A stretch of DNA of 64,000 nucleotides. Origin: Isoetes taiwanensis (Eukaryota > Streptophyta > Lycopodiopsida > Isoetales > Isoetaceae). The notes below the pieces were generated by a model. It had not been told where the DNA came from. It was given only the letters and a program-made list of their open reading frames with translations, and did not search any database. Below are positions 830 through 63,190 of this stretch, in pieces. The stretch lies in the NCBI GenBank assembly GCA_021234155.1, contig JAJEKV010000023.1, positions 10,241,141-10,305,140 on the forward strand, written 5' to 3'. Positions within the stretch are counted from its first letter, which is position 1. Each line of letters starts with the position of its first letter. The position numbers and the translations under genes were made by a program.

Positions 830-2045
830 CGTGATAGATGTGGTGATGCAAATGGTGCATGTGGTGAATCATGTGGTGCATTTGGTGAACCATGTGGTGA
901 ATCATGTGGTGAATCGTAGGTGGCATGTTGGAGCTTACGTGGCATGTTTGACTTTCATTGACCAACATGTTTGGTGATGCAAATGGTGCATGTGGTGAAT
1001 CATGAGGTGTATTTGGTGAATCATGTGGTGAATCATGTGGTGCATCGTAGGTGGCATGTTGGAGCTTACGTGGCATGTTTGAGCCACCTTGGCATGTTGG
1101 AGCCTAGGTGGCATATTTGAGCCACCTTGGCATGCTTGAGCCTTTACATGACCTTTGTTACATGTTTGACTTTCATTGACCAACATGTTTGGTGATGCAA
1201 ATGGTGCATGTGGTGAATCATGAGGTGCATTTGGTGAATCATGTGGTGAATCATGTGGTGAATCGTAGGTGGCATGTTGGAGCTTACGTGGCATGTTTGA
1301 GCCACCTTGGCATGTTGGAGCCTAGGTGGCATATTTGAGCCACCTTGGCATGCTTGAGCCTTTACATGACCTTTGTTACATGTTTGACTTTCATTGACCA
1401 ACATGTTTGGTGATGCAAATGGTGCATGTGGTGAATCATGTGGTGCATTTGGTGAACCATGTGGTGAATCATGTGGTGAATCGTAGGTGGCATGTTGGAG
1501 CTTACGTGGCATGTTTGACTTTCATTGACCAATATGTTTGGTGATGCAAATGGTGCATGTGGTGAATCATGAGGTGTATTGGTGAATCATGTGGTGAATC
1601 ATGTGGTGCATCGTAGGTGGCATGTTGGAGCTTACGTGGCATGTTTGAGCCACCTTGGCATGTTGGAGCCTAGGTGGCATATTTGAGCCACCTTGGCATG
1701 CTTGAGCCTTTACATGACCTTTGTTACATGTTTGACTTTCATTGACCAACATGTTTGGTGATGCAAATGGTGCATGTGGTGAATCATGAGGTGCATTTGG
1801 TGAATCATGTGGTGAATCATGTGGTGCATCGTAGGTGGCATGTTGGAGCTTACGTGGCATGTTTGAGCCACCTTGGCATGTTGGAGCCTAGGTGGCATAT
1901 TTGAGCCACCTTGGCATGCTTGAGCCTTTACATGACCTTTGTTACATGTTTGACTTTCATTGACCAACATGTTTGGTGATGCAAATGGTGCATGTGGTGA
2001 ATCATGTGGTGAATCATGTGGTGCATCGTAGGTGGCACGTTGGAG
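830..2045. repeat. Tandem array with alternating 131-bp and 218-bp units
   Basis: Equivalent points (gaccaacatgttt or gatgcaaatgg) recur with spacings of 131, 218, 218, 131, 217 and 218 bp. The long unit is the short unit plus an 87-bp block built from gagccaccttggcatg and ggagcctaggtggcat. Inside every unit a 13-15-bp motif (catgtggtgaat) is itself repeated three to five times. Open frames on both strands here are a by-product of repeat length and lack of stops; they read as Pro/His-rich strings and are not genes. Confidence 0.95.
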
Positions 2046-2860
2046 CTATTCATGAATGGCCAATTCAGGATAGATATATATATATATATTTTTTTTATGT
2101 TTTTTAGAAAATAAAATAATGGTCCTTTCGAGGTTATTATTAGTTGCCTACTAAATCTTTAGGAATAAAGATGCTAATGGTACTAAAACTTAAGGAATAA
2201 AGATGCTAATGGTACGAAATCCTAAAATCGTAGCCTACGAAATTAATTTCACGCCAGCCTTTATAGGCTATGGTCGTGAAGGAGAAGCATCGTCCAATTC
2301 CTTCCAAGAATGTCGGCATTTGCCACGCGCTCTCCCTCCAGCTCGCCTCTCCCTCTCCCTCTCGCTCGCGCTCGGCGCTCCCTCCCCTAAAAGCTAGGAA
2401 GCGCTTTCAATTCCTTTGGCACGGTGATGGCCGGTTATGAAATAGGATCTTGGCCAAATTACCATTTTCTTTGGGCCAGAACACGAGAGCCCGGTGCGAG
2501 AGCCCCGAGCGAGAGCTCGAGTGCGATTCCACCTCTTAAAGCTCAAGATCTTTGAGACTTTGAGCGGTGGAATCCTCCCTCTAATTCGATTCCTCTCGAT
2601 GAAGCTTCTTCTGATGATCAATTTGATTCCCAAGATTACGATAACGAATCGGCGAAGACCGGACGAGAAGAAGAAGAAGAAGAGGTAGAAGGCTAAGAAG
2701 AACATGAAGTTTTTTGGAACTCCAAAATGTTCTCTGAGTAAGTAGCATGCATGCATTAAATTTTTGCTTTCTTTTATGTATTCTAAACTAATTTTCTTCA
2801 CTTTTTCTTCTGATGAAGCTTGAAGTCCCATTTTGTGCAATTTTTTTTTCTTTTGATCAA
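2046..2860 (+). other. Spacer with a possible acidic exon remnant
   Basis: A short AT run (2073-2100) is followed by a GC-richer stretch with ctccctctc runs (2325-2390). Between about 2598 and 2736 the plus strand encodes an acidic tract (DEASSDDQFDSQDYDNESAK, then six Glu) with one in-frame stop, and a GTAAGT-like site follows at about 2737. It could be the N-terminal acidic exon of an old transposase, but nothing downstream confirms it. Confidence 0.25.
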
Positions 2861-3290
2861 GTTAGTCTACAGGCCTTTTGTGCCTTTGTATTTTTTTTTT
2901 TGAAAAACAGATGGTATATAGGCCTTAGTGCCTTCATTTGATCTCACCCCCTTGTGAACTCACCCCTTGTGATACAGGCCTTAGTGCCTCTTTGTAATAT
3001 ATGATGGCCTTAGTGCCTTTTTGAATATATGATGGCCTTGTGCCTTTTTGAACCTTGTGTAAATTTCTAATTCTGAAGTATTCTGGTATCTTCTGTTTTA
3101 ACATATGATGGCCTTGTGCCGACTGTAATCCAGGCCTTGTGCCTTTTGTTTAATCGAGAAAATAGTTTATAATGGCTTTGTGTCTTGTGTAAATTTGTGC
3201 CTTGTGTAAATTTCTAATTCTGTTTTACCACAGGCCTGTTTCTAAAAACAGATACCACAGGCCTTAGTGCCTTTCTTTGATCTCAATTCA
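2861..3290. repeat. Degenerate short repeats built on ggccttagtgcc
   Basis: The motif ggccttagtgcc or ggccttgtgcc recurs at least ten times (for example near 2922, 2977, 3005, 3032, 3109, 3132, 3260), separated by tttttgaatatatgat and tgtgtaaatttctaattctg. Spacing is irregular, so this is a decayed minisatellite. It is followed at 3412-3470 by a short run of gtggtgaaa units resembling the motif of the 0.83-2.04 kb array. Confidence 0.7.
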
Positions 3291-3470
3291 GGGACCTAAT
3301 TTGGGATCCATATATTGCTGTCACCAAAATCAGTCAAGATACTATCAGGAATCTGAGAGCCATTCCATTTTCTGACCGGGTCAAAAAATGGTCAATGCCC
3401 CTGGCTGATTATGGTGAAATCTGTGGTGAAAGCCGTGGTGAAAACTGTGGTGAAGCTGTGGTGATGCAAA

Positions 3471-4180
3471 CGTTGTTTTTATATTTCAAAGGGAGAAAAA
3501 TACATATGGAAATCTACCATACCCGGTAGAATAGTTCATACTTCTTATGAAATGAAGTATGCAGAAAAACCCTGAGCTTCTAGTATTATCAAAATGCATT
3601 AGAGATGACATACAGTTACTGGGCCTCAATCAGATCCTGCATTGTGAGATCTCAGAACTCTACTATTTGGCACGTTCAAGACTTCATCAAGTAAGCCGCT
3701 GAATAGTTGGTGTAATCCAGCAACACTAAAACATGTGCTTCAAGTTTACGCTCCCACTTATGATCTGATTCATAAAGTATTGTCTCAGTTGTTGTGTCTC
3801 CATGCATCCGGCCTGCCGAGCACTTTTTAATGGCTGAAGCATGGATCATTTCTGCTTTAGTTGGATGAACATATCCTCTTCCTCAAGCACGGGGAGCTGA
3901 GAACTCATCCTCGAGAATCATACACCACCCCGGAACCCCCCGGTACCGCACCGGCTCTGTTAAGTCCCGGCGCATGCGTGTAAACAACATCATCTGTGTA
4001 AAACAACATCTACTACAAAGAAAGGCAACCGCCTATCAACGCCTTGGCTTCTAATTCTTTAAGCCCATCGGGGAATTAACCTATGTTTTAAGCCTAGAAT
4101 ACCTCGAATTCATGGGCCCTCCGCTCCTCTAATATCCGCCTCTGTTCTGGTTTATTTGCTCCGGTATAGGTCCTACCGGA
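3471..4180. other. Spacer without recognisable features
   Basis: No frame, RNA or clear repeat is supported. The stretch shows many stops in all frames and locally GC-rich pieces (3925-3980). Confidence 0.4.
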
Positions 4181-9794: not shown

Positions 9795-12599
9795 CTGGTT
9801 CTTGTAGCGAAATTGGAGTAGTAGGTCGAAATAATGCAGGTATTTGTTGATCTTGACGAGTTTTTACTGAATCTTCACGAGTTTTAAGTATCAAAGTTTT
9901 AAGTATCACGAGTTTTTACTGAATCTTCACGAGTTTTAAGTATCACGAGTTGAGGCAGCTTTGTTTTTATGTTTCAGGTGTTTCTTGTTCGGATTTAGCT
10001 CCCCTAGGTTCTTATGATGGCAAAGGTACGTTCTATTGTTATTAAAGATTAATTTATTCTTGCATGCAACGTTTCTTTGCTATTGCAGATTCTTGTGGAG
10101 GCTCGAGTTCAAATGCAGGTGCTACTGGAGGCAGAAGTTCATATGCAGATGCTTCTGGAGCCACGAGTTCTGCAGCTAGGATTTCAGATGTTGTAAATGC
10201 AAATGTTTCTAGCATTGAAGGATGTTCTGCTGGTATGTATGATTCTTTTATTTATTTTTTCGTGTCCGCTCTGGCGGGTATGTAGGGTTTTGAATCAAGA
10301 TCAGATTTTGTTTCATTATAGGTGGTGCCAGTTTAGAAGAGACCTGTCCTCCTTTCTTTCTTGGTACTCCATTTGAAGATGACACAATTATGGGAGATGG
10401 TGTAGAAAATAGGACAGATGGCAGAGATGTAGAAGATGGCAGTGGTATTGCAGAGGTAGTAAATGGCAGAGCTAGAGATATTGGAATTGATAGTCGTTGT
10501 GGAAAGAAGGCATTACATATTGGTGGGATTACCGCTTTGGATCCCGAACTTGTTAAGAGGGTGAATGCACCATTTGTAAATCCATCTGAAACGAAGGACG
10601 ACTGGATTAGGGGTCGATTTGATGCATGGAGATTGCACGTTGGAAAATCAGTAGATAAAGCGATTGAAGAAATTCCCTTGGAAGAGCTAGCCGATAATTT
10701 GGAAGAATTTGTGTTGTGTGTGCGGCGACTTGATGGGAAATGTTATCCTTCGGATACGTAAGTTCTGATTTATTTTTATATTTGTTTTTAATATTTATGT
10801 AAGTTTTAACATATGTTTATATTGCTTTTCCTCAAGAAGCTGCGAATTTGTATAGAGGCTTTAATGCATTTTTGCGCCGCGCAACGTGATGCAAGAATGA
10901 TCGTAATAGAGACGTAAGAGAAGTTGATTGATACGTACCATGATATAAAGTTCATAAAGGCACGTAAAGCATTGGAGGTGGCAATGCAAGAGTCTGTTGC
11001 AGCTGGATCAATGTTGTTAAAAAACCCGTTTTTTATTTTTAAAGTACCTTTATAAAAATCCTCACGTTTTCAAAGGATTTTTATGATTTGGTATGGCCAA
11101 AAAAAAAAAAAAATTGCACATCCTTAGCACTACTTTATTGGATATATGTGCTATGGTTAAAATGCATATTTTTATTACAGCATGTCAACCAGTAAATCAA
11201 AAATTTATGCTGCTACAAAGATATCATAGTTATTGTGCCATGCAACTCTTAAGAAAGTTCAGAAAATCATTATTATAGAGATTAAGAAATATAAGAATTT
11301 CATATACAAGGATAAATAAGTTCAAGAATATCATATATTTGAATAAACAAAATCACAGTCTAAGGACTTTTAAAGATTTTTAAAGATTTTTAAGGATTTT
11401 AAAGATTTTTAACGTATTTTATATGAAATACGTTTTTAAAGATTTTTTTTCAAAAATTTTAAAAATCTTCAAAAAATCTTAAAAAACGTTTTTTAAAGGT
11501 ACGTATTTTAACGTACTTAACAACATTGAGCTGGATGCATTCCAAAGCGGAAGAATTCTGACATTATTAGCAGGGAAGACCAATCTCGGATTTTGGGACA
11601 TGAAGCACATCAAGTAACCAATAATTTGGGCTTGCAAAAGAGGTTTGCATTTTATTGCATGTCCAGTTTTTTATTCGCCGGTACAGAGTTGCGTAAGGTG
11701 CGTGATTTCCAGCTTTGCAATTGGAAAGGATTGTGTTAGGGGAATACCTTGAGTATTATGCAGACTAATTAGCAAAAAATTGGGTGGCGGAATAAATAAA
11801 TGTAAACCCGAGGATTTTCGTGAGCCGGTAAGATGCTATGAGGAAGATGTTATAGAGTGCCGGAAGCACTTGGAATTTAGGTTGTCGGGCATGAGGTGCG
11901 TGACAAATTTGATGGCAGGTTTGTCTTCTTTGCAGCCATAAATCGCGCCCTAGATCCGAGATTTGGTATAACACTAATCATGTGTCTTCAAGACTATTGG
12001 TACTTATCGAGATATGGCGTTAACTGTCATTTAGAAGGTAACTATACAAATAAAAGTTGCGGTGACCACCACGCGATCACACGATGTCGGTTTAGGTGTT
12101 CCGATAGAGATTGGAATGAAAATTGGCTGGGGCATAAAAATCCGTAATCTTATCGGAGGTATGATCAAAGTTTTAATTGTAGCAAAGGCATCCGCGATGG
12201 AGTGTTTAAACTCGTAAGACGTGATGTCGAATCTTTTGTCGCTAACGCATGCACTTTGAATGTCGGGCCTATCCGGTATGCGGAAAAGGCGGCTGGTCTT
12301 TGTTCTTCAAATTCCGTTCCGCTAAAAGATGTCAGAAATATTGCTGCAAGTTCTGGTAATTGAATATTTTCTATTTCTTTGAATTCTTGTAGTTGCAGCT
12401 TTATTTATTGTTTTTAAATTAATTGCAGGTTCTTCTAGTGGAGTTTTTGCTCATGTCGTCATTGACGATGCCTATATGAGCGACCTAGATCATCTGTTGA
12501 ATGAGAAGCCAGCATTGAAGAAGTATTTCAACGATGAAAATGTTTTTTCTAGTGGTGGGAGAGTTTCAATCACGTGTACTTGTGATTGAGAATTTTGTT
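9795..12599 (+). pseudogene. Crypton-like tyrosine recombinase (DUF3504-like), decayed copy 1
   Basis: The gene begins with short exons that all keep phase 1 (9795-9839, 9978-10025, 10089-10232), followed by a long exon from 10322 to about 10757. Its N-terminal domain reads KDDWIRGRFDAWRLHVGKSV, then EELADNLEEFVLCVRRLDGK, the core-binding region of the DUF3504/Crypton recombinase family. A broken stretch (10838-11000) reads LYRGFNAFLRRAQRDAR. After the inserted MITE the protein resumes with SREDQSRILGHEAHQ, then LGLQKRFAFYCM and GTELRKVRDFQL, where the catalytic Arg appears to be Thr. The C-terminal catalytic part at about 12015-12170 is readable only across frameshifts: YTNKS, then GVPIEIGMKI, GHKNP and YRRYD with the expected Tyr. 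A last intron (12356-12428) and exon to 12599 follow. At least three frameshifts plus the insertion make it nonfunctional. Confidence 0.75.
11009..11528. mobile_element. hAT-type MITE, 520 bp, nested in the recombinase pseudogene
   Basis: Perfect 12-bp terminal inverted repeats CAATGTTGTTAA (11009-11020) and TTAACAACATTG (11517-11528) are flanked by the 8-bp direct repeat agctggat (11001-11008 and 11529-11536). An 8-bp duplication is the hallmark of hAT insertion. The interior is AT-rich with subterminal runs of ttttaaagattttt. Removing the element and one duplication rejoins the recombinase reading, which confirms the boundaries independently. Confidence 0.88.
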
Positions 12600-13950
12600 A
12601 TAAACGCTATGCCTTTGAGTGAGGCAGGATCATTAGTAAAATCATTGTAAGTATTATATTTTCCTTATTCCTTATTCCATATTAAGTATTATGTTATTGT
12701 ACTATGTTTTCCAGCAGATGAATATTATTGTATTATGTCTTGCAGGAAATGAAGTTGCAGGAGATGACGTTGCAGGAATTGTGATCCAGTGGCATCTACT
12801 ATATGCAGTATCTTAGTTAATGATCCAGTGCAATGTTTTGAATGATCTAGTTTTGCAGTGAAAATACAGTGATGCTTTGATTACAGTGATGTTCTAAAAA
12901 CAGTGAAAAGTTAAATACAGTGATGTTTTCAATACAATGATGTTTTCAATGTTTTGATATTTTGAATCAATGTTTAAGTTTCAGTGTTTGAGCCAATCAA
13001 TGTTTATTTTGTGTAAGTTTGAGTGTAAGTTTCAGTGAAAACAAAGGAGAAAAAAACAATTGAAAAAAAAACTGAAGAAAAACAAATTGAAAAACAAGGG
13101 AAACCGCTAAACCCGGCCATCCGTAATTGGAAGACCCAACTTCCATTCCGGATTGTAGGGGGCTGACACATGTCAGCAGCGGAATGGTCGCCAGAAAATA
13201 AATGCGACCCTGTTTCCATATTGTTTTCAGCTCGAGCGAGCGATAATAGGACGCCGAGACATTGCAAATGAATGCCTCGTGCACTGAAATGCAGTTATAT
13301 TTATACCCACGAAATTATTGAGAGATCATACGAGTATCATGTACATAATAATTTTGTATGTATGTACCATCAATAATTTTGGTGGTTGGTGGCCCACAAA
13401 GTATTTTGTATATATCAATAATATTTGAGGATACTTAAGCTTGAGAAGTAGGAGAAATTGCTACAGCTTGAGCATATTGGCTTGGGTCAAAATTCTCTAA
13501 ATCGCGTTATTCTCTCCAAATAATTAAATCTTGTTTACTATGATAATTATAAAGGGGAGAGAAAAAGAAGAATAATTTTATACCCACCACAATAGACATG
13601 GTGATTTATAATCAATCACCTACCTTTTATTTATGCTCAGGTTTCCATGTTAGCTCAAGTTAATAGAAAATCTTCACAAGTTGCTTCGAATATCAGATTC
13701 ATTAGTATATTTAAAGATAGAGGTCCCATCATTGATCCTTATGAGCCAAAGTCGGTGATAGTGATATGAGGATTCTAATTCCTACTTAACATGTTGGGCC
13801 TAATTCCTAGTACTAAACAATGCAACAACGACAATGAGGTAGATGTTTGATACTATTGTCACAACTACTTCATTAAATTTGAGCGTTACTCTAGGATTTT
13901 AGTATCAATTTTGTTCCCACCGGTGAAGAGAACCTTCCAGAGAACCTTAG

Positions 13951-44359: not shown

Positions 44360-45110
44360 ATTGGAATGCATTCCCCTATGGTTAGTCGCAGAGGCCTTCA
44401 CCCAGTCTTAGCTTCTCCCCTTTGCAATATTCGATGAAGTTGGTTCGAAGAAGAGTGGCTCGGACTGGCTGGAGGCACCTGCGACTCAACACTGGAGAAT
44501 GCACTAGAGCTTGGGCAGATCAAGGGTGGATGTGGGATAAGGAGTCTGCATTGCTGTGTGTAAGACTCGAGGGCCTTCTCGACTTGCGAGTCAAGAAAGC
44601 CCCCAGTCCTCCTTAGGGATGCAGTTCAAATGCATTAACCTATGGCTAGTCGCAGAGGCCTCCACCCAGTCTGAGCCCCTCCCCTTCGCAATATTTGAGG
44701 AAGATGGTTCGAAGGAGAGTGGCTCTGACTGGTTAGAGGCACCTATGACTCGATACTAGAGAATGCACTAGAGGTTGGGCAGGTCAAGGGAGGATGTGGA
44801 ATAAGGAGTCTGCATTGCTGTTTGTAAGACTCGAGGGCCGTCTCGACTCACGGGTCGAGAAAGCCCCCAGCCCTCCTTAGGGATGCAGTTCAAATGAATT
44901 CCCCTCTGGTTAGTCGCAGAGGCCTCCACCCAGTCCGAGCCCCTCCCCTTCGCAATATTCGAGGAAGATGGTTCAAAGGAGAGTGGCTCTGACTGGGTAG
45001 AGGCACCTGCGACTCGACACTGGAGAATGCACTAGAGCTTGGGCAGGTCAAGGGCTGAGGGCCTTCTCGACTCGCGAGTCGGAAAAGCCCCCAGCCCTTC
45101 TTATGGTCCT
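44360..45110. repeat. 264-bp tandem repeat, about 2.8 copies, each with the palindrome
   Basis: The landmark gttagtcgcagaggcc recurs at 44381, 44645 and 44909, exactly 264 bp apart. Each unit ends with the palindrome (44574, 44836, and after a deletion 45063) and agcccccagccctcc. Confidence 0.95.
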
Positions 45111-45169
45111 CTTGACTCGTATGTCTAGTATGCGACCACCAAGACTGAGCCTCCATCCAGTCTGGATGG

Positions 45170-45575
45170 CCGCATTCTCGACTCACATTTTGAGAACAGG
45201 GGGAGTAGACTAGTGTTGACTGGTTGAGGCATTCTCGACTCAGGAGTCGAGAATAGCGAGTCGAGAATAGGAGCATTGGCTGGCTGAGTTGCGAGTCGAG
45301 AATAGCGAGTCGAGAATAGGAGCGTTGGCTGGTTGAGGCATTCCCGACTCGCCGTCTCGCAAGTCGAGAATAGGAGCGTTGGCTGGCTGAGGCATTCCCG
45401 ACTCGCCGTCTCGCGAGTCGAGAATAGGAGCGTTGGCTGGCTGAGGCATTCCCGACTCGCGAGTCGAGAATAGCGAGTCGAGGATAGAAGCATTGGCTGG
45501 CTGAGGCATTCCTGACTCGCGAGTCAAGAATAGCGAGTCGAGGATAGGAGCGTTGGCTGGGTGAGGCATTCTCGG
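45170..45575. repeat. 50-60-bp tandem array of palindrome plus gagcgttggctgg
   Basis: The landmark gagcgttggctgg recurs at 45270, 45320, 45374, 45428, 45488 and 45548. Each unit has one or two copies of gcgagtcgagaatag and a cattcccgactcgc half-palindrome. Minus-strand frames through it (repeating NAPILDS and SGMPQPA) are repeat artefacts. Confidence 0.95.
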
Positions 45576-45579
45576 CAAG

Positions 45580-46803
45580 GGAGGATGTATTATGTGTTAC
45601 AAAGGTCTGTGCAATGCTCTAAACTACCTAACATCTTCACAGTTCAATTATGTGTTAGAAATGCTTTGTGCAATGAAACATTCGTAGCTGTTTCTTTTGT
45701 GTACATGCTTGCTCTGCAATTTTTTCCTTCTATCACCTGTCTTTGGAGGATTCCTAGTCGACAATTTTGGTTGCTTGTCCCTATTCGTAGTTATGATTAA
45801 ATAGCAACATTGAGGCATTCAATTAAATAATACAAACAAAGAACACGGAACTGGCTTCCCAAAAAAAAAAAAAAAATGATCCTCGTCCTGACACGATCTG
45901 AATAAAACAAGATAATATAAGGAAAGAACATACCTGGCAGATTTGCTGGAAGAAGACGCAACTTCCATGTCTGATTCCTTGCTTACACAGACACTTGCAA
46001 ATCGAGAATAGGGATTTGTCGGGCTGGAAATTGTATCAGGGGATAGTAAGATCCTTTAAATACTATAAAAGGAAAAAGTAAGTAAGAATACATTAAAGCA
46101 TATGGAAATAACAAGATCAATAAAAATAGTGCTAAAAACTTACTAAAAAGAACCTCGCTTTCTTCTTAGACAATAGCGGCCTTTGGAGGACTCGATCTGC
46201 GCGAAAACTTCGGCGCTGGATGCGTCACGATCCGTCGACCAGGCGGCTATCATAAGAATAGGTCGCAGAGGTGTTCGTCGATCGATCGCCCAGCAGGAAC
46301 AGAAGAAACAAATGGCGAAGGAGTTCGACAAAACAGAGGAGGATGAATCACAAAACAGAGGAGGATGAATCGGTCGGAGTCGAGGAAAGGGAAGAGTGCA
46401 GTTATTTCTCGTTGTATCCTCGATCCTCGCAAAAGTGCCTTAACGAAAGTCTGGCACGTACAGGCCATGTCATGCGTGCCGTGGGTGTGCGGACTGCTGA
46501 CGTGGCACCGTCAGCAGTCGCTGAGGAATTGGCACATGGCCACAAGAATATATTATAGCTCTATGGTTTTAATATTATGGTTTTAATATTTTACGGTTTT
46601 AATATTATGGTTATATATATTCTTATGATATTTGGTTATGATATGTTATATGGTTTTAATATTTATGGTTATATGGTTATATATATGGTTATGATGTTAT
46701 ATGGTTAGATGGTTATATTTTATTATTTTTTGTTTTGTAGTGTTCATGGTTATATGATTATAATGTGTCCTCTTTCATTTAGGGAGCATGTGAGATAATC
46801 AAA
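45580..46803. other. Spacer with AT simple repeats before the DUF7869-type gene
   Basis: The part at 46560-46740 is a degenerate ggttatatggttatatat repeat. Short overlapping frames on both strands at 46143-46586 lack motifs. No promoter is assigned. Confidence 0.5.
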
Positions 46804-49689
46804 ATGGAGCCAAGCAAGCCAAGTACAGGATATTGCCCTAGGCTCCAATGGAGGAAGATGGATTGCTTATTATTGCACCCATGCAATGGGACGGTCTTTG
46901 CAGAGAGCATCATAACTACAGTGGATCCATCTGATAGTGTGAATGATGAAAGGCTGGGAGATAATCATCTTGGTGTTGGCATTGGGAAGCTTCTTATCCA
47001 AGTTGATGCAATCATGTTCCAGGGGAGTTCCAGTGACTGCATTGTGTGCTCTAGGTTGCTGGAGTCTCAAACTCAGTTAAGATGGCCAATTAGACATATT
47101 ACACACAAGAATGGTGAGAACCTAGAAGGCCCAACTGAAGTAGATACCCCAAGGCCCAGCCCAGGCAATGTGGAAGGTTTGGTGGTGGATGAGCATCCTT
47201 TGATCACAAGGAAGAGGCGCTACATTTTTCATAGAAGGCATCCAAGGGAGCCCAAAAGGGCTAGAAGTGGCAGATATTTACAAAGAATAGAAAGTATGGC
47301 ACCAACCAAAGAAAACCTAGAAGCAATTAGGGGACAATAATGTTGCACTCTAGATTGCACAGTCCAGTATAGTGTGGATGACCTTGTGGAAATAAGGTCC
47401 CAATACATTGGACAACTTAAGAAAGACAGGATTAATTTCATCTACTCCGTATATAGAAATTCCTGCTATGATGGAAACACAGGAATATTACTTTTATCAC
47501 TTGAGGGGCCTGAAGGTATGTATGAGAGCATTGAGATGGATTCTTGGCGTGATCAAGACTTCATTTTACAGATACTGGGAGCGGGTCAGAAAAGGGCGGT
47601 TGTTCCAGCATGGCAATGCACTGACTTTGAAACCTAGGGCAAACACTTTGAAGGCCATTGCAGTCTTCGAGAGCTTTGTGAGATACATGTCTCAATCTAT
47701 GCCGCATAAGTCGAAGGTGAACGAGCACGGTGTACGAGTGATCCAAAGGGTGTTGCCACAACATTACATCCAGAAAGAGTGCCTTAAAGAGGTCAACTCC
47801 ATTCTAGAAACTACTGGAGGTCAGCCTCTTTCTCAATCACATTTCAGGAGGTTATGGAAAACTCACTTCTCAGACGTGTGTGTCTTGCAACACATGTCAT
47901 TCTCAAAGTGCAACACTTGCATTCAATTGAAGGATACACTTGCATCTGCAATGGAGAAAGAAAGAATGGCAATCAAGGAGCAATTTGCAGATCACCAAAG
48001 GGACAAAATATCATGTAGACAGCTGTATTGGCAGAGGAGAACATTTTCCCAGATGCAGCCTGACAAATTTTGGTGTATAATTCATGATAAGATGGACCAA
48101 CACAAGACTTTCTTGCCAAAGCTAGATCCTTTGCCCAAGCATTGTCAAAACGCTTTTCAGATGAAAATAAGTCTGGCGGGTGTCTTGACACATGGACATG
48201 GAACTGGCACCTATGGTCATTTTGTGCTTGATCTATGGAGGGATGATCCCAATTTCCATGTGAGTTCTATTTTCAAGTGCTTGAGAACACTAGAGAGAGG
48301 ATCGATAGAAGGGAGGAGATATTCTTCCTCAGCCCCCATTTTTGAGGCTTTGATGGATGATCAACCGCTCTGTTACCAAAGGCAAATAAAGGAGCTCACA
48401 TCCAAGGCGTCGAAAGAAGCAAGAATGACTTGGGATGACTTCCCCTTACTTGAAAAACAACTGTCAGAGGAGCTATATGTTCAATTGGACAATTGTTGGA
48501 AAGAAAATAAGAATAGATGGATGTTTGGGGCAATGTCATACTTGACAGCAGTGGGAGTATTCAAGATTGTGAAGGTGGGATTCATGATGGTTGGGCATAT
48601 GCATGATGATATAGATACACTCTTTGAAACTTTCTCTACCAAGATCAAGAGAGAAAACGTGACTAGTCTCCCTGAACTTATGGATGTGTTTGAGAGCTGC
48701 ATTGACCCCAACCCAAGGACTTTCTTGATGGATGAGGTTGCAGATTGGAAATCATTTGTCGAGGGATACTTGCTAGATGGTAAGGATCAGTTGACAAGAA
48801 ACATAAAGCACTTCAGTTTAAGTTTTGGGTCAGGGATGGAATACCGATCATGCAATATAAATGGAGACCAGGTGATAAGTTGTGGATGCCTATACAAGGA
48901 ATCGAGTTGTGGCAAAGGGGGGCTATATGTGAAGTTCTTATTCCTAGAGGGCAGCCAAAACCACTTCCTCCCTTCAAGGCTGTTAAAGACTCTAGCCAAC
49001 TAGTGAAGGGCATCAAGGATTATATAAGGCGCTGGGATGATGTTGGAAATGGAAAGCACACCTCCACTCTGAAGAAAAATCACATGGACTCCCTAATCAA
49101 TTATTGAAAGAAAATTGTGACATGTTTAGAAACAGAACAGCCATGCGGGGGGGAGCTGAGAGACGGGTTCTTACCAGAATCTAGATGGGAGGGTTCTCAT
49201 GGAGCAAGCACATCTAAGAAAGTTGACTTGGGTCCTAACAATGGCTCCAAGTGGTTCGTGGGAAGCAAGGCCTCAAAGCCGAAGTGGTTTGATCTTCCTG
49301 AGTGGGATTCTTTTGAGGACATCAAGGAAGGATACTTTGTGCTAGTAAGGCCTGACGATGAGGATTGTCCAATTTGGTTAGGGGTGGCACTCTTTGATGT
49401 TACCACCACCATGTCTGATGGAGAGGAGCTGCGTCTTGGATTCCAGGTTCAATATTGGGAGCCTGTTGGAAGGCACAAGAGGGGCAACTTGAAGGAGCAA
49501 TACACCGATTGCTGGGAGGAGTGGAGGACAAATCATGCTGATCCTCAAAGAAGGGAATTGGTAGAATGTGTGGTATGGTCATATCCAACTTGTCACATTT
49601 CAAAGGACAAGACCCACAAGATCCCCAAAAGGGAGATGGACAAAGCCATGAGCAACCTCCATGCTATAGCACTGTATGAGGGTAGATAA
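46804..49689 (+). pseudogene. DUF7869-type, probably transposon-encoded protein, nearly intact
   Basis: One long protein can be read with few lesions. It starts at the ATG at 46804, meets a TAA at 47338-47340, and continues in the same frame (CCTLDC, then VEIRSQYIGQLKKDRINFIY) to about 47445. It then shifts to a second frame (LRGLKVCMRALRWILGVIK, then a Cys-rich helix MSFSKCNTCIQLKDTL). The core domain is HDKMDQHKTFLPKL, ISLAGVLTHGHG, FVLDLWRDDPNFHVSS, LQ/VQLDNCWKENKNRWMFG and VGHMHDDIDTLFETFS. These Asp-rich strands suggest an RNase-H-like catalytic core, and the set matches the DUF7869 family as I know it. Near 48818 the frame returns to the first (FKFWVRDGIPIMQYKWRPGD), passes a stop at 49105-49107, and ends with a domain containing WLGVALFDV and VQYWEP at 49689. 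No terminal repeats were found. Confidence 0.6.
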
Positions 49690-57699: not shown

Positions 57700-58054
57700 T
57701 AGAACGCCGGAAGGGTTTCCACTGAAAGTGGAATTTTTCGGGTGAAGATATCCGCCGTTAATTAATGACCAGATTTAATTCCCACGGCTATTTTAGAAGA
57801 GGTTTTTTAGAAAGAATTTCTTTTCTTCTCACCTCTTCTCTTGCTGCAATTGGCGATTCGAGGTTTCACCTCACTGGCAATGATTCAAGAAGCATTTCTG
57901 AGGCAAGGATTCAAGAAAGTGTTTGTGGCGATTCAGGGGATTCAAAGATGCGTTTCAGTTCAGTGATTTAGAAAGTCCAAAAAAGATTCAATGAAGCGTT
58001 CGATTTCTTTCGGCTTCTGGAGTTCGCCTTCAAAATCAGAGCAAAGGGGAGAAG

Positions 58055-58148
58055 AAGGGGTTAAACCCCAATGCGAGGCCATTATGGCCAATAAACAGGC
58101 GAGCCCGTTTATTGGCCATAATGGCCGAGCATTGGGGTTTAACCCCTT
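58055..58148. repeat. Long hairpin, 42-bp arms with 2 mismatches, 10-nt loop
   Basis: The left arm (58055-58096) begins aaggggttaaaccccaatgc and ends ggccaataaac. The right arm (58107-58148) is its reverse complement except two positions. The arms contain smaller palindromes (ggccattatggcc). It lies about 200 bp upstream of the first exon of the second recombinase gene. Confidence 0.95.
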
Positions 58149-58345
58149 TAACCGGCAGTTTCGAGGGGATTTTCGTTTTACCCAATGGACAAAGAAGGCT
58201 TCCGTTGGACATTATTGCGTACGAAATAGGTAGCAAACACACATGGCAGAACTGGCACTCAGAGGAGGCAGAACTGGCGCTCAGAGGAGGAGAGGAGATT
58301 TGTGCGCCGTGAAGACTTTCGATGGCGCTGTGAAGAGGCGATTTG

Positions 58346-61300
58346 ATGGAGGAAGGACTTAGTATGGAGCAACGATTTGGTGCTGGTTTCAACCGTTCTT
58401 GCTGCATCTCATATGATTATGGTTGTTTTTGTTGCATTTCTGCAGGAACTAGCAATTTGTTAGAGGAGCTGCCTGGCGATGGCGATCATATTAACTGCAA
58501 CACAATAAAGAATGGTATGATTTCTTGTTTTACCTTGATTCGTGTAAAGAATGGTATGATTTCTTGTTTTATCCTTGATTCATGAATAAATATATTGTTT
58601 ATTTTTAATCTTTATGCATTTGTACAGGACATAGCCAACAGAGGAGTCCGAGCTTCGATTTAGGTATCCCTAGTCAGCCTTTGCATGAAAGAGGTAAGAT
58701 TCTCACAACTTGTTGCTTATTTTTTATGATCAATGAGATTCTCACAAGTTCTTGCTGATTTTTCATGATCATGATGCTTTTGATGCTGCCCTCTACAGGA
58801 ACCAGTATCCCTACCAAGGAACTGCCATTTTATGCTTCGATTAACAGCAACAAAGGTAAGATTCTCACAAGTTCTTGTTGCATTTTAAATGCTCAATGCT
58901 GTTTTTGATGTTGCCACATCAAAGAATGGTCGGTTTCTTGTTTTAATCAAAATTTTATTGATAAATGTAGAGATTTTAGTTGCTTTTTGTGCATTGGATG
59001 CAGGATACAGCCAAGAGACGCGCTCTAGTTTGCCGTTGCATGCTGGAAATGCTGGAAAAGGTAAATATGTGTGCCTTTGCATGAAGAATAAGGAAAAGAT
59101 GTATATTCTTGCTGCATTTTGTGAAGCTGGTTATACTGGTGCTCTGTATAGGAACCAGCAGAAAGGGGCATTCAAAAGCTATTCGTAATCAGCCAGGTAA
59201 CCATTTTAAGATTAATACATTCTATGAATGAAAGAAAACGAAGAAAATGGCTGCTCCTTTATGTTATCAATCAAGTTTGATTTGAGTAACATATTCGTAT
59301 GTTGTTTTCATGTTGCTCTTTTTAGGGAAACGTCCTTTTAGGGAGCTTAATCCAAATCGGATGGAGCAGGTGAACAAGGGCAATAAAAATAAACAAACTG
59401 AGAAGAAGGATAACTGGGCCAGAAATCTGTTTGCTTCTTGGAGAGAGAGTTGTGGCGTAGCAAATGTTATAGATGATGTTGACATTTTGATTGAAGACAT
59501 GCCATTGCAGGTAATTAATCATATATTTGTGTTACCTTTTTTTTTACATAAATAGGGAGGCTATCAGCAGTAAACTATCGGTTTGCATTAGATCATGTAA
59601 TTTGGAATGTTAATTTATGTCATCAATCTATAATCAATTTACTATGTGTTTCTGATGTCCACAGGAATTTGCAAGGCAACTGCCATTATTTTTTCAACAA
59701 GTCATGAAAAGTGATGGATCCATGTATCTAGCGTCAACCATACATGATTTGCTGCTTTGCTTTGGACGAATTCTGAAGGACGCCAGACTTAGTAGGATAA
59801 GAAAGACTGGAGTGCTTGAAGAAGACATTAACATCATGACGCATCCATTTTTTGAAGAGGCTAGGTATATATTTGACGTTTGATGCATTAATTTAAATTT
59901 AAAACTGTTTATTTAGTAGATTGTAAATTATTTATTTATTATAAACATTCTATTTATTTATCATTATTTATTTTCTTCTGTTTATTCAGGTCTGCGGCAA
60001 CTGTTGTTGCCCATGAGGCCAACCTTAGTGCACCAAGGGACGTGACAAGAGTCGTCGAAGTCTTGAGTGTCGAAGATGTAAATCTATGGGCAGATTAGAA
60101 TTTAGCAAAAATACTCCAAATGGCTTGCTGTTCAGGGTCGTTCTATTCTGCATAAACTTTTTTTTGATAAGATCTCGAGAGGAACTCCATGCCTTGAAAT
60201 ATAAAGATTTCAACTTCGAGAACGATAAATTCGGAGAATTTGTACAGTAAGTTTCCACAACCATCTTCTAGTGTTTATTTGAGTAGTTTTGGATTTCTTA
60301 CAATGTTTCTAATTCACATGAGCATTTTGGTAGGTTTAAACGACGGGCGAGCAAAAACTACCCAACGGACATAAAAAAGAGCAAGGAGAGCAATAAACGG
60401 TACGATCTTTGTTTATATAAATAGGTCTTTTAGCATTTTGCATGGCTGTAATAGAGAGATTTGCTTGTAATTTGCATTTGCATTAATTAAGTATTTGAAT
60501 AATCTGCAATTGACTACTCATAGTTTTTGTTGTAGGAAACCCGTGGAGATATATAGAAAGATAAACCCGGAGGTTTATGATACGTTTGTATTGTTTTATT
60601 CGAGACTGCCACCAATTGCGAATGATGCCTCCACCGATGGCTATCCCCTGTTTACGGCTGCAATTACGAAGCCACAATCTGATACTTGGTACGCCTATAA
60701 TCAGAATGTTGGAGTCAAGAAATTGGGGGACGTAGCCAAGTTAATCAGCGAGATTACAGGAAAAAAGTTCACGAACAAAGATTTAAGGCATTCAAGTATT
60801 ACAGTTTTGAACGTTTGTGGTGTACCGGATGAAGCAGCTATGAAGCTTACTGGCCATAAACGAGCAGAAAATCTGCATCAGTAAGTTTAAGTTTATTTTT
60901 TATTATATATCTTGTTCTTTTATTTAATATTTCTTCTTCCCTTATTTAGGTACGACCATTCAGACAAGGTGCAGATGATGGCCATGCAGTCTATTCTATC
61001 CAAACCACATGATAACAATGGTAACAATGTGGACAGCATTTTGAAGTCAGAAATTTCATTCAAAAATTCTGCTACAACTCAGTCTGATGCTGGTAAGCTA
61101 TGGTACTAATTTTCTTGCAATGGTGTATTTGATTTTATTGTACATCTTGTAGGTGCATGCAGTACTAGTTCTTTTGTTGATCCTGTTGCTTTCGCTGTAC
61201 AACAACCTACAAATGGTATAGATTGGGTTCCCTTTAACTAAAGCTTTTTTTTGAAAGTGTCTACTTGTTACTAATTATTTTTGTATGCAGGTTCTAATGT

Positions 61301-61370
61301 GACTTCAACAACTGCTATTGGTGTTTGTGCTGCGCCTGCTGGTAATGATAACGATGTCCTAGTGGTCTAA
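58346..61370 (+). pseudogene. Crypton-like tyrosine recombinase (DUF3504-like), nearly intact copy 2
   Basis: Thirteen exons can be joined: 58346-58385, 58446-58514, 58628-58693, 58799-58855, 59004-59060, 59326-59510, 59665-59864, 60000-60246, 60334-60399, 60536-60880, 60950-61092, 61153-61215, 61291-61370, about 540 residues. The first five exons end in phase 1 and split a Gly codon. The core-binding part reads KDNWARNLFASWRESCG, then DMPLQEFARQLPLFFQQVM. The catalytic part reads NGLLFRVVLFCINFF, then SREELHALKYKDF (box I Arg), KKFTNKDLRHSSITVLNVCG (box II, Arg present, Lys in place of the usual His), then MKLTGHKRAENLHQYDHSD with the second His and the nucleophilic Tyr. Joining exons 10 and 11 rebuilds the Tyr context exactly, which supports the intron. 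One frameshift (60096-60097, one base missing) is the only visible lesion, so it is either a very young pseudogene or a sequencing error. Such enzymes cut and rejoin DNA for Crypton elements; some are domesticated in animals. Confidence 0.8.
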
Positions 61371-61848
61371 TCCTGTTATAATGCAAATGCTGATTTAGTA
61401 ATAATGATGGAAGTTGCTAATATAGCAAGTATCAAAGAAGACAACGCACTTCTTCAGTTGGAGGAGGACCTTACATGTATAAGGGATCCTCTCGCACGCA
61501 AAGCTCTCAAACTTGATGAATATCAAGGGCCAAGACTTAGCACAGCTGACACAATTCAAAGGCCAAGAATATGTACTAACACATTTGAGCACTCTACTTT
61601 TAATAATTGTGTTTTTACGTTTCAGGTGGCACCCTCTTGAACCTCGTTTTGAGGATTGTGTTAAAATGTAACTGAAGCTTTTAACTCAAAAGCTTGAGGC
61701 TGTAAAGTGATTGAAGCTCGTTTTGACTGTTGATAAATCATTTTCCTATTAAAAATCATGTCAGAAACTCAAAATTGTGAATTGTTAAAATGGTTCCAGT
61801 AAACAAAACTGTATAATTAATGACAATATTTCTCTCTTAAGGACCAGC
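61371..61848 (+). other. 3' region of the second recombinase gene
   Basis: An open frame at 61404-61640 (EDNALLQLEEDLTCIRDPLA) could belong to an alternative 3' exon, since GCTG|GTAATG at 61341 is a possible donor. No motif decides this. Confidence 0.25.
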
Positions 61849-61849
61849 A

Positions 61850-61911
61850 TGTTTATCACGATAAACAGGCCAGTAAACAGGTTATTGGACTGTTTATCTT
61901 GATAAACAGTC
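61850..61911. repeat. Two adjacent short hairpins with gataaaca arms
   Basis: tgtttatc-ac-gataaaca (61850-61867) is followed by a 24-bp hairpin with arms gactgtttatc and gataaacagtc around tt (61888-61911). The motif ataaacaggc is shared with the loop side of the 58.1-kb hairpin (aataaacaggc), so the two hairpin sites may mark the two ends of one element. Confidence 0.85.
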
Positions 61912-63190
61912 TAGAAATAAAACATTATGCCTAATAATTGAATTGCATCAAACGGATCAGATTTAAAATCCCCAAGGAACTGCCGGTTAAGGAAAAATCT
62001 TGCCTGCAGAGCCATATCAGCAAGATGAAAGCCCAGGAAATGATAAGATCAATTTAGCACTTGATGACTCAGACTTGCGTACAGATTTCTTTTGTGGATC
62101 AACTTCTATTTGGTTCCTTGTGTTTAGTGGACTAATATGTGCAGGTCATCTTGGAAAGGCAAAGGAAGTAATTACAGAGGTTTTGCAAGAGAATGCACAG
62201 ACATGAATAGACATGAGGATCCCATTTTTTCCCTCTGTTGGAGTGAGCAGGTATTGGATTTATGGTGTGCAACTTTTTCTATCACTTCTAGAAATTTTAT
62301 AGGACTATCTTACCTTAGGTTTGATTTATGCAAGTTGTGGTAGGTTGTGCATGATTGGCATCCAGAATCAGTTTTCCAGCAAAAGCCAAAGAGTTATCTT
62401 TTGTGTGGGTCATCTTTTCTCTTATTTTATCCACAAAGGATCTTGGATGATTGATAATTAGAGATGTAATGACCGAAGAACATTATACAGTAAATAAGGA
62501 CTATGTTACCATATTTACTCTATGCTCTGTTGAAAACATTAGTCCAAGAATCAACATATGAATTGGATGCCCACAGTTGTGGATTATGAACTCTCTGTTG
62601 GAAGCCCTGGTTGTACAGTCATTAAGAAGTCATCAGAACTTACACCTTTGACTACTCTAGCCACTCTAGCACTTGCAATATCCGTGAGGACCGTGATTAC
62701 TTGTTATTATGTTCGTGTAGAGATCTTAGAAAGGCAGCACAGAAAGGCTGCCAAACCTAGATGTTTCCATTTCCTGCATTTCTTCATTGTCCTTACAGTT
62801 ACAGAGTCATGCATAAAGCTTCTTGATGACGTAGATGGCCTTTCAATGAAGAATTAGAAGGCAGAATTTGGACTTCAAGCTGCCTGTTGGATACGGAAAG
62901 ACATTAAAGCTATTTATGAAGTGATGCATAAGTTATTGCTTGAATGAAGATGTTGTTGTTCTATATGCTATGTTGCAGAGGGTAAACATAAGATTGCAAC
63001 TGTTTTTTGTCGATTTCATGGTCCGCCATATTCCGTTATCAGAGCTTTGAAGAACTATTTTATGTGACATTTTGCAAGGACTTGCCTAAGCAAAACCGAG
63101 TAAGTTACATATCATGCACAAGGAAAAAGAACATGCCTGCCTTGCTCACAAAAACCAGGCAAAAAAAGAAAAGACGCATAAATGTCAGGC
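61912..63190 (+). other. Spacer with possible exon pieces
   Basis: A few plus-strand pieces look exon-like (GHLGKAKEVITEVLQENAQT at about 62145-62204, preceded by tttgtgcag-type acceptor sequence) but no coherent gene or family emerges. Confidence 0.25.

Follow-up and report, generated by a model that had tools for sequence, protein, structure and literature searches.

The question raised by this locus is whether an intron-rich gene at positions 58346-61370 (plus strand) of a 64,000-nucleotide stretch of DNA from the lycopod Isoetes taiwanensis, the whole of which is hereafter called the window, belongs to a mobile element, and if so to one of which kind. The window covers 10.24-10.31 Mb of a 19.7-Mb scaffold (contig JAJEKV010000023.1) in an assembly of 1,658,258,908 bases and 1110 contigs (GCA_021234155.1). 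A first-pass annotation, made from the letters alone, had read here a gene for a Crypton-like tyrosine recombinase, and both the exon model and the profile matches bear this out. We are highly confident that the locus is a copy of a Crypton-like tyrosine-recombinase DNA transposon, because of the profile matches, the retained catalytic residues, the dispersal of its relatives over many places of the genome and the insertion junctions; the same evidence supports the presence of such a recombinase in the nuclear genome of a land plant.

The recombinase gene and the unit that carries it

The unit, a member of what we call family 1, is larger than the gene span that had been annotated, its limits being set by ends common to other copies. 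The 3' end at 61990/61991 is common to all five close copies fetched (78-97% alike by segment), position 61991 being the base after the common TTAA, a base that differs among copies; the 5' end at 58054 is common to two of these five copies (L033 and L035), and the other three diverge upstream. The unit contains the following features.

58054-61990, plus strand: whole transposon copy of family 1, 3937 bp, with ends common to other copies
58055-58148, no strand assigned: 5'-terminal palindrome, arms 58055-58100 and 58103-58148, 93% complementary
58148-58173, no strand assigned: left inverted repeat (complement of the 3' end); GA at 58163-58164
58346-61370, plus strand: gene for the tyrosine recombinase, modelled with 14 exons, each of the 13 introns being GT-AG in the window
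Exons 1-5: 58346-58385, 58446-58514, 58628-58693, 58799-58855, 59004-59060
Exons 6-10: 59152-59196, 59326-59510, 59665-59864, 59990-60246, 60334-60399
Exons 11-14: 60536-60880, 60950-61092, 61153-61215, 61291-61370
60086-60098, plus strand: frame lesion, with a 4-nt gap after 60086 and an in-frame stop at 60096-60098
60536-60880, plus strand: exon 11, with box II (NKDLRHS) and the GH motif (LTGHK)
60951-60953, plus strand: codon of the Tyr of QYDH, at the start of exon 12
61888-61911, no strand assigned: small subterminal hairpin near the 3' end, 11-nt perfect arms
61965-61990, no strand assigned: right inverted repeat and 3' end of the element, with AA at 61974-61975 (GA in most copies)

The annotation was right in calling the gene intron-rich, but its count of twelve introns falls one short of the 13 in our model. 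Introns 7-13 keep GT and AG in 21 of 21 cases in three copies that are about 80% identical, in which exons 1-6 could not be aligned; the two closest copies, L033 and L035, have two altered donors each among these introns. The basis for exons 1-6 is the splice consensus together with splice sites kept in L033 and L035 only.

The profile comparison that the annotation had proposed as a check was carried out with the joined product of the 14 exons, with X at the lesion. This product matches the Pfam domain DUF3504 with E 3.9e-7 and 30.7 bits (cut-off 29.7), and Phage_integrase with E 8.2e-5, below the cut-off. Open reading frames (ORFs) from a second family of elements in the same genome, which has 31-36% protein identity to family 1, exceed the Phage_integrase cut-off in three of five cases (E 6e-8 to 1.1e-7), stay below it in the other two, and gave no DUF3504 match when scanned. 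All three proteins scanned against PHROGs matched phage integrase families. A genome-wide search with DUF3504 returned only two matches, we think because the introns break the domain and because the second-family ORFs do not match it. No relative was found in a viral collection scanned twice, with the single sequence and then with the alignment; a single weak hit, to a hypothetical protein, came from phage records.

When the product is aligned with seven sequences of the second family, the Arg of box I, the Lys and Arg of box II, the His of 'GHK' and the Tyr of 'YD' prove invariant. The last four confirm the residues annotated in box II, GH and QYDH, whereas the box I Arg, previously assigned to 'SREEL', proves to be that of 'LIR'. 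The Tyr lies nine positions after the His, which is the canonical spacing, as in XerD. All five residues (R, K, R, H and Y) are kept in 19 of the 23 distinct copies, namely the distinct loci among the best 30 of 176 matches; in L005, L010 and L016 the box II Arg is replaced by Leu, His and Cys, respectively, with the other catalytic residues checked being kept.

Copies, insertion sites and the state of the window copy

The genome was searched with the C-terminal half of the protein as query, and 138 of 1118 first-look candidates were scored, so that all copy numbers are lower bounds. At least 176 exon-level matches were found, and the 150 of these that were listed place relatives at 123 or more sites lying over 5 kb apart, on 74 contigs, a lower bound for the count of copies that had been suggested as a further check. 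Copies occur both on small contigs and on scaffolds of 8-44 Mb. Family 1 includes 17 short copies of 0.6-1.2 kb, selected because both of their ends already matched. The second family has members of 3.7-4.15 kb (L036-L038), several loci at which catalytic exons of about 400 residues are open (intactness being read for these exons only) and short copies of 0.6-1.1 kb, of which 15 of the 20 fetched have their 3' end within 4 nt of the expected position; L051, whose 3' match stopped short, is left out of this count. Judged from their sequences, the short copies that share both ends are non-autonomous. A third lineage, L092/L093, is about 60% identical in protein to L011, a second-family member, and a further pair, L090/L091, is 92.6% alike with a common 3' end and no 5' end found.

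The window itself holds a second, decayed copy related to the second family and separate from the main element (10294-12650, plus strand). Its tblastn pieces, with frame breaks, extend from 10845 to 12647 in several frames, an ORF resembling the N-terminal part (10294-10761) has no Pfam match, and the box I and box II Arg are unreadable in the matched frame.

Unoccupied paralogous sites were found for three elements by searching with their joined flanks, and 14 empty-site stretches were examined from the resulting listings. The element is absent at the predicted point in all fetched paralogues, namely eight of eight for L059 (family 1), four of four for L036 and two of two for L037 (both second family). 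TGT occurs once in the six empty sites of L036 and L037, and at both ends when the site is filled. The predicted insertion point of L059 is present in its eight empty sites, with one base differing at the right junction, and the repeat that hosts it has at least 40 empty paralogues among the joined-flank matches listed. No target duplication of variable sequence was seen in the empty and filled sites of the three elements. The base before GTATGG is T in 19 of 20 second-family short copies, and C in L040 and also in L092. Family-1 left junctions have A two bases before GAAGG in 20 of 20 copies, the next base being A, T or, once, G; at the right junction the TTAA of the 3' end is followed by G, A or T. 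The insertions are dispersed in the genome, and three lie inside other repeats of the same genome. Some copies are not independent of one another: the flanks of L050 are nearly identical to those of L054, and the same is true among L065, L060 and L059 (contig C1068, near 8.06, 8.09 and 8.13 Mb), so in the latter trio a single insertion probably travelled with subsequent duplications.

The annotation had described the window gene as nearly intact, with a single 1-nt slip attributable to recent activity or to a base-call error. In fact four letters that stand in each of the five aligned relatives are missing after 60086; a base-call error is unlikely, and we consider the window copy dead. The closest copy, L035 (97% alike), is broken at other positions. 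Recent amplification seems to be a property of second-family copies instead. Nor did a comparison of exons with introns give any sign of selection since insertion among the close copies, exons being no better conserved than introns in L035 (97.0% against 98.6% identity to the window copy) or in L033 (94.1% against 95.4%). Exons are slightly better conserved in L031, L032 and L034 (85-88% against 83% for introns), with fewer gaps. Between subfamilies of the second family the ratio of nonsynonymous to synonymous divergence (dN/dS) is 0.07-0.15 for the pairs in which dS was computable, saturation affecting many; it is 0.19 and 0.27 in two closer pairs, and 0.51-1.09 among the youngest copies. Such a pattern would be expected of a mobile family in which source genes are conserved and copies decay.

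Predicted folding of the element ends and competing explanations

The window element folds back on itself over its first 95 bases (-49.5 kcal/mol, z -16.2, matched by none of 200 shuffles), a palindrome that the first-pass annotation does not mention and that is the most unusual part of the element. A 5' palindrome of this sort, spanning 82-119 bases, is found in 19 of the 20 family-1 copies folded and in all 23 second-family copies, starting in each case within 8 nt of the insertion point; L035 has lost most of it. The palindrome occupies one end of the element only, is directly followed by an inverted copy of the 3' end, and has no counterpart at the 3' end, the fold of which is not significant as a whole (z -1.3). 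Terminal inverted repeats are thus present in family 1, in the second family and in L092/L093, where the palindrome has the same arrangement. Single copies extend this picture. L094 and L095, the ends of which are provisional, have the palindrome, the inverted repeats and the outer GA/GA; they show no 2-nt bulge at the join, and the inner GA/GA lies at +20 in L094 and is absent in L095. L096 has the inverted repeats in a fetched stretch that starts inside the palindrome, and no such palindrome was found in L097. L098 (C1038:14031501-14037000, within which it spans 1051-3920) is a more distant relative that has 17-bp perfect inverted repeats with GA beside them and seems to lack the palindrome, perhaps a simpler, ancestral end.

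When the right end is joined to the left end, as in a circle, the computed DNA fold is one long hairpin with recurrent irregularities. Among 20 family-1 copies, 15 have a one-sided 2-nt bulge (GA) at +1, 15 a GA/GA loop at -16 and 12 another at +21 or +22. The 16 second-family copies folded show a TA bulge at +2 in 13, GA/GA at -16 in 12 and at +22 in 14, the other seven of 23 (L042, L044, L046, L047, L051, L052 and L057) lacking the exact 3' end. L092 and L093 each possess the bulge and both GA/GA loops. We read these loops and bulges as reflecting selection for a folded or cruciform shape, since a perfect palindrome has no such loops and gene conversion between the legs should remove them; this reading is weakened by the possibility that the lineages inherited the loop pattern from one ancestor. 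Covariation between the legs is clear among the 21 distinct rows of the second family, where six pairs show double changes (1.4 in shuffles, one of 500 as high) and the number of cells is 14 (1.8 in shuffles, none of 500). It is weaker among the 19 rows of family 1, with 14 cells (4.9 in shuffles, none of 500); kinship of the rows inflates the cell and score measures. When the partner is slid by 1-3 columns, pairing falls from 97% to 31-59%, a difference that taking the structure from one of the rows would by itself produce.

From these features a mode of movement may be proposed. Intact relatives would presumably have the element excised or copied in circular form. The circle would then insert by strand exchange at a very short matching target; the palindrome and both inverted repeats would form the putative site of the recombinase, which would sit on the arms of the joined ends. 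It is possible, and we suggest it only tentatively, that the enzyme acts on a folded hairpin end, either cruciform or single-stranded, as on integron attC sites; the 2-nt bulge on one leg would then set the crossover, and the tandem G.A mismatches at about -16 and +22 would mark the binding arms. The recurrence of the hairpin shape where the sequence differs hints at a way of moving that is undescribed for such elements.

Several observations weigh against the picture of a Crypton-like element moving in this manner. Among solved structures the family profile search found no tyrosine recombinase, and the single-sequence search returned only XerH, with E 0.13. The junction bases of family 1 vary (AWG, once AGG, on the left and AAD on the right), and we see no simple direct repeat there. 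Terminal inverted repeats are foreign to the known Cryptons, as discussed below, and we infer the circle and the enzyme activity of intact relatives from sequence. At -16 the window copy shows AA/GA in place of GA/GA; its bulge and inner loop are present. Finally, the two family-1 covariation measures least prone to inflation are low: double changes occur in four pairs where shuffles gave 2.3 (a value reached by 50 of 500), and there are 13 further pair types where shuffles gave 11.1 (reached by 41 of 500).

The inverted repeats at both ends, together with the 3-bp repeat at second-family ends, would also suit a DDE-type transposon that moves the units and carries the recombinase as a passenger or resolvase, as in Tec elements. 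We regard this as very unlikely, given that every site tested shows TGT as the 3-bp repeat, not a variable sequence, and that Pfam scans of 17 of the 18 ORFs of at least 100 amino acids in four elements (each scanned itself or as an identical ORF at another locus) revealed no DDE or reverse-transcriptase profile, only the recombinase matching above the cut-off; small exons could escape such detection. For this copy it is still less probable that the gene has been domesticated by the host, as were ZMYM and QRICH1 in animals; domestication would account for the DUF3504 match, the many introns and a weak QRICH1 match of the N-terminal part (E 0.014, below the cut-off) and is contradicted by the many dispersed copies, the transposon ends, the lesions and the retention of catalytic residues, most of which the DUF3504 of animal genes is reported to lack (PMC3212892). 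Contamination of the plant assembly by fungal or oomycete DNA is scarcely credible, with copies on scaffolds of 8-44 Mb too and three insertions inside other repeats of the same genome.

A more serious rival concerns the ends alone. The recombinase may use ordinary double-stranded ends, the palindrome being a by-product, or serving another role such as promoter insulation, escape from silencing or replication, with its legs kept alike by gene conversion; taken together, these options seem to us evenly poised between right and wrong. They draw strength from the second-family crossover, which lies within a short double-stranded inverted repeat (CCATA-TTG-TATGG), from L098, a single-copy relative that seems to have inverted ends without the palindrome, from the weakness of family-1 covariation in two of five measures, and from the fact that the folding comes from computation and not from biochemistry. 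Yet gene conversion should erase the GA/GA loops and the 2-nt bulge, both of which recur in most copies of three lineages, and against this reading there is also the start of the palindrome within 8 nt of the insertion point in 19 of 20 and 23 of 23 copies.

Elsewhere in the window, a 535-amino-acid ORF at 47396-49003 (plus strand) matches DUF7869 with E 1.4e-39, and no link between it and the transposon was found; it is flanked by ORFs at 46783-47340 and 49108-49689 that have no Pfam match. A 242-amino-acid open frame at 44890-45618 (minus strand) consists of repeated peptide units resembling LDSRVGNASASQRSYSRLA and is probably a tandem repeat rather than a gene.

Comparison with known systems

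The first-pass annotation took Cryptons and their domesticated relatives to be described from fungi, oomycetes and animals, and knew of none from land plants. One tree genome paper reportedly contains a single mention of Crypton-V (PMC13084152). The open literature searched, as far as its accessible text extends, contains no described land-plant Crypton, only list entries or counts, Repbase reports and subscription papers lying outside the search; in this sense the statement stands. It fails insofar as Cryptons are listed or counted for plants: surveys place them among the superfamilies present in all groups surveyed, land plants included (PMC4438587), and give counts in a plant atlas (PMC8729191) and in the sour cherry genome (PMC10722297). 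Fungi, animals and stramenopiles are the hosts from which Kojima and Jurka (2011, PMC3212892) list Cryptons, and a review states that none have been described in Arabidopsis (PMC7385966). Tyrosine-recombinase DNA transposons of a land plant are documented here with their ends and insertion sites.

The present elements work like Cryptons and are set apart from them by the descriptions of the latter. As in CryptonF, S, A and I, the recombinase is the only recognised gene, has a DUF3504-type domain and is accompanied by non-autonomous derivatives; the Pfam match points toward the animal-type domain among the Crypton groups A, F, I, S and V. A variable target duplication is likewise lacking, and the second family has a short terminal direct repeat that is alike in the copies tested, such a repeat being named as the only Crypton hallmark besides the coding sequence (PMC8969392). 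We do not file the elements as plain Cryptons because they have inverted repeats, in addition to the terminal palindrome, whereas published accounts say that Cryptons have no terminal inverted repeats (PMC3212892, PMC3627910). No hairpin end for Cryptons appeared in the accessible parts of the same open literature, again with Repbase reports and subscription papers outside the search; a hairpin end would bear on how Cryptons choose and cut their sites. The 5' ends of L036-L038 and of L093 start with TGTATGG, and CryptonS termini are reported to be TATGG (PMC3212892), a likeness that may be coincidence.

Recombinase retrotransposons such as DIRS and Ngaro share with these elements a tyrosine recombinase and inverted or split terminal repeats, but no reverse-transcriptase profile was seen in the ORFs scanned here. 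The animal genes ZMYM2-4, QRICH1, KCTD1 and WOC share the DUF3504 domain, and QRICH1 weakly resembles the N-terminal part of our gene; they are host genes in which most catalytic residues are reported lost, whereas the present family is mobile and keeps them. IS200/IS605 elements and Helitrons use HUH enzymes, unlike the recombinase of phage-integrase type found here. They resemble our elements in having terminal or subterminal hairpins (PMC3627910, PMC7385966).

A parallel to the predicted fold is offered by integron gene cassettes with their attC sites. The circle would carry one imperfect hairpin, its crossover placed on a single leg and its unpaired positions at fixed offsets, and the hairpin stays at one end of the element after insertion, just as one attC hairpin stays at one end of each cassette. 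If the folded form were the substrate, these elements would constitute a eukaryotic counterpart to the structured-DNA recombination of bacterial integrons, and plants would have a transposition intermediate of single-stranded or cruciform DNA that evolved independently of integrons. In contrast with integron cassettes, the elements of Isoetes have no attI platform, insert at dispersed places and carry their own DUF3504-type recombinase, and their folding is predicted.
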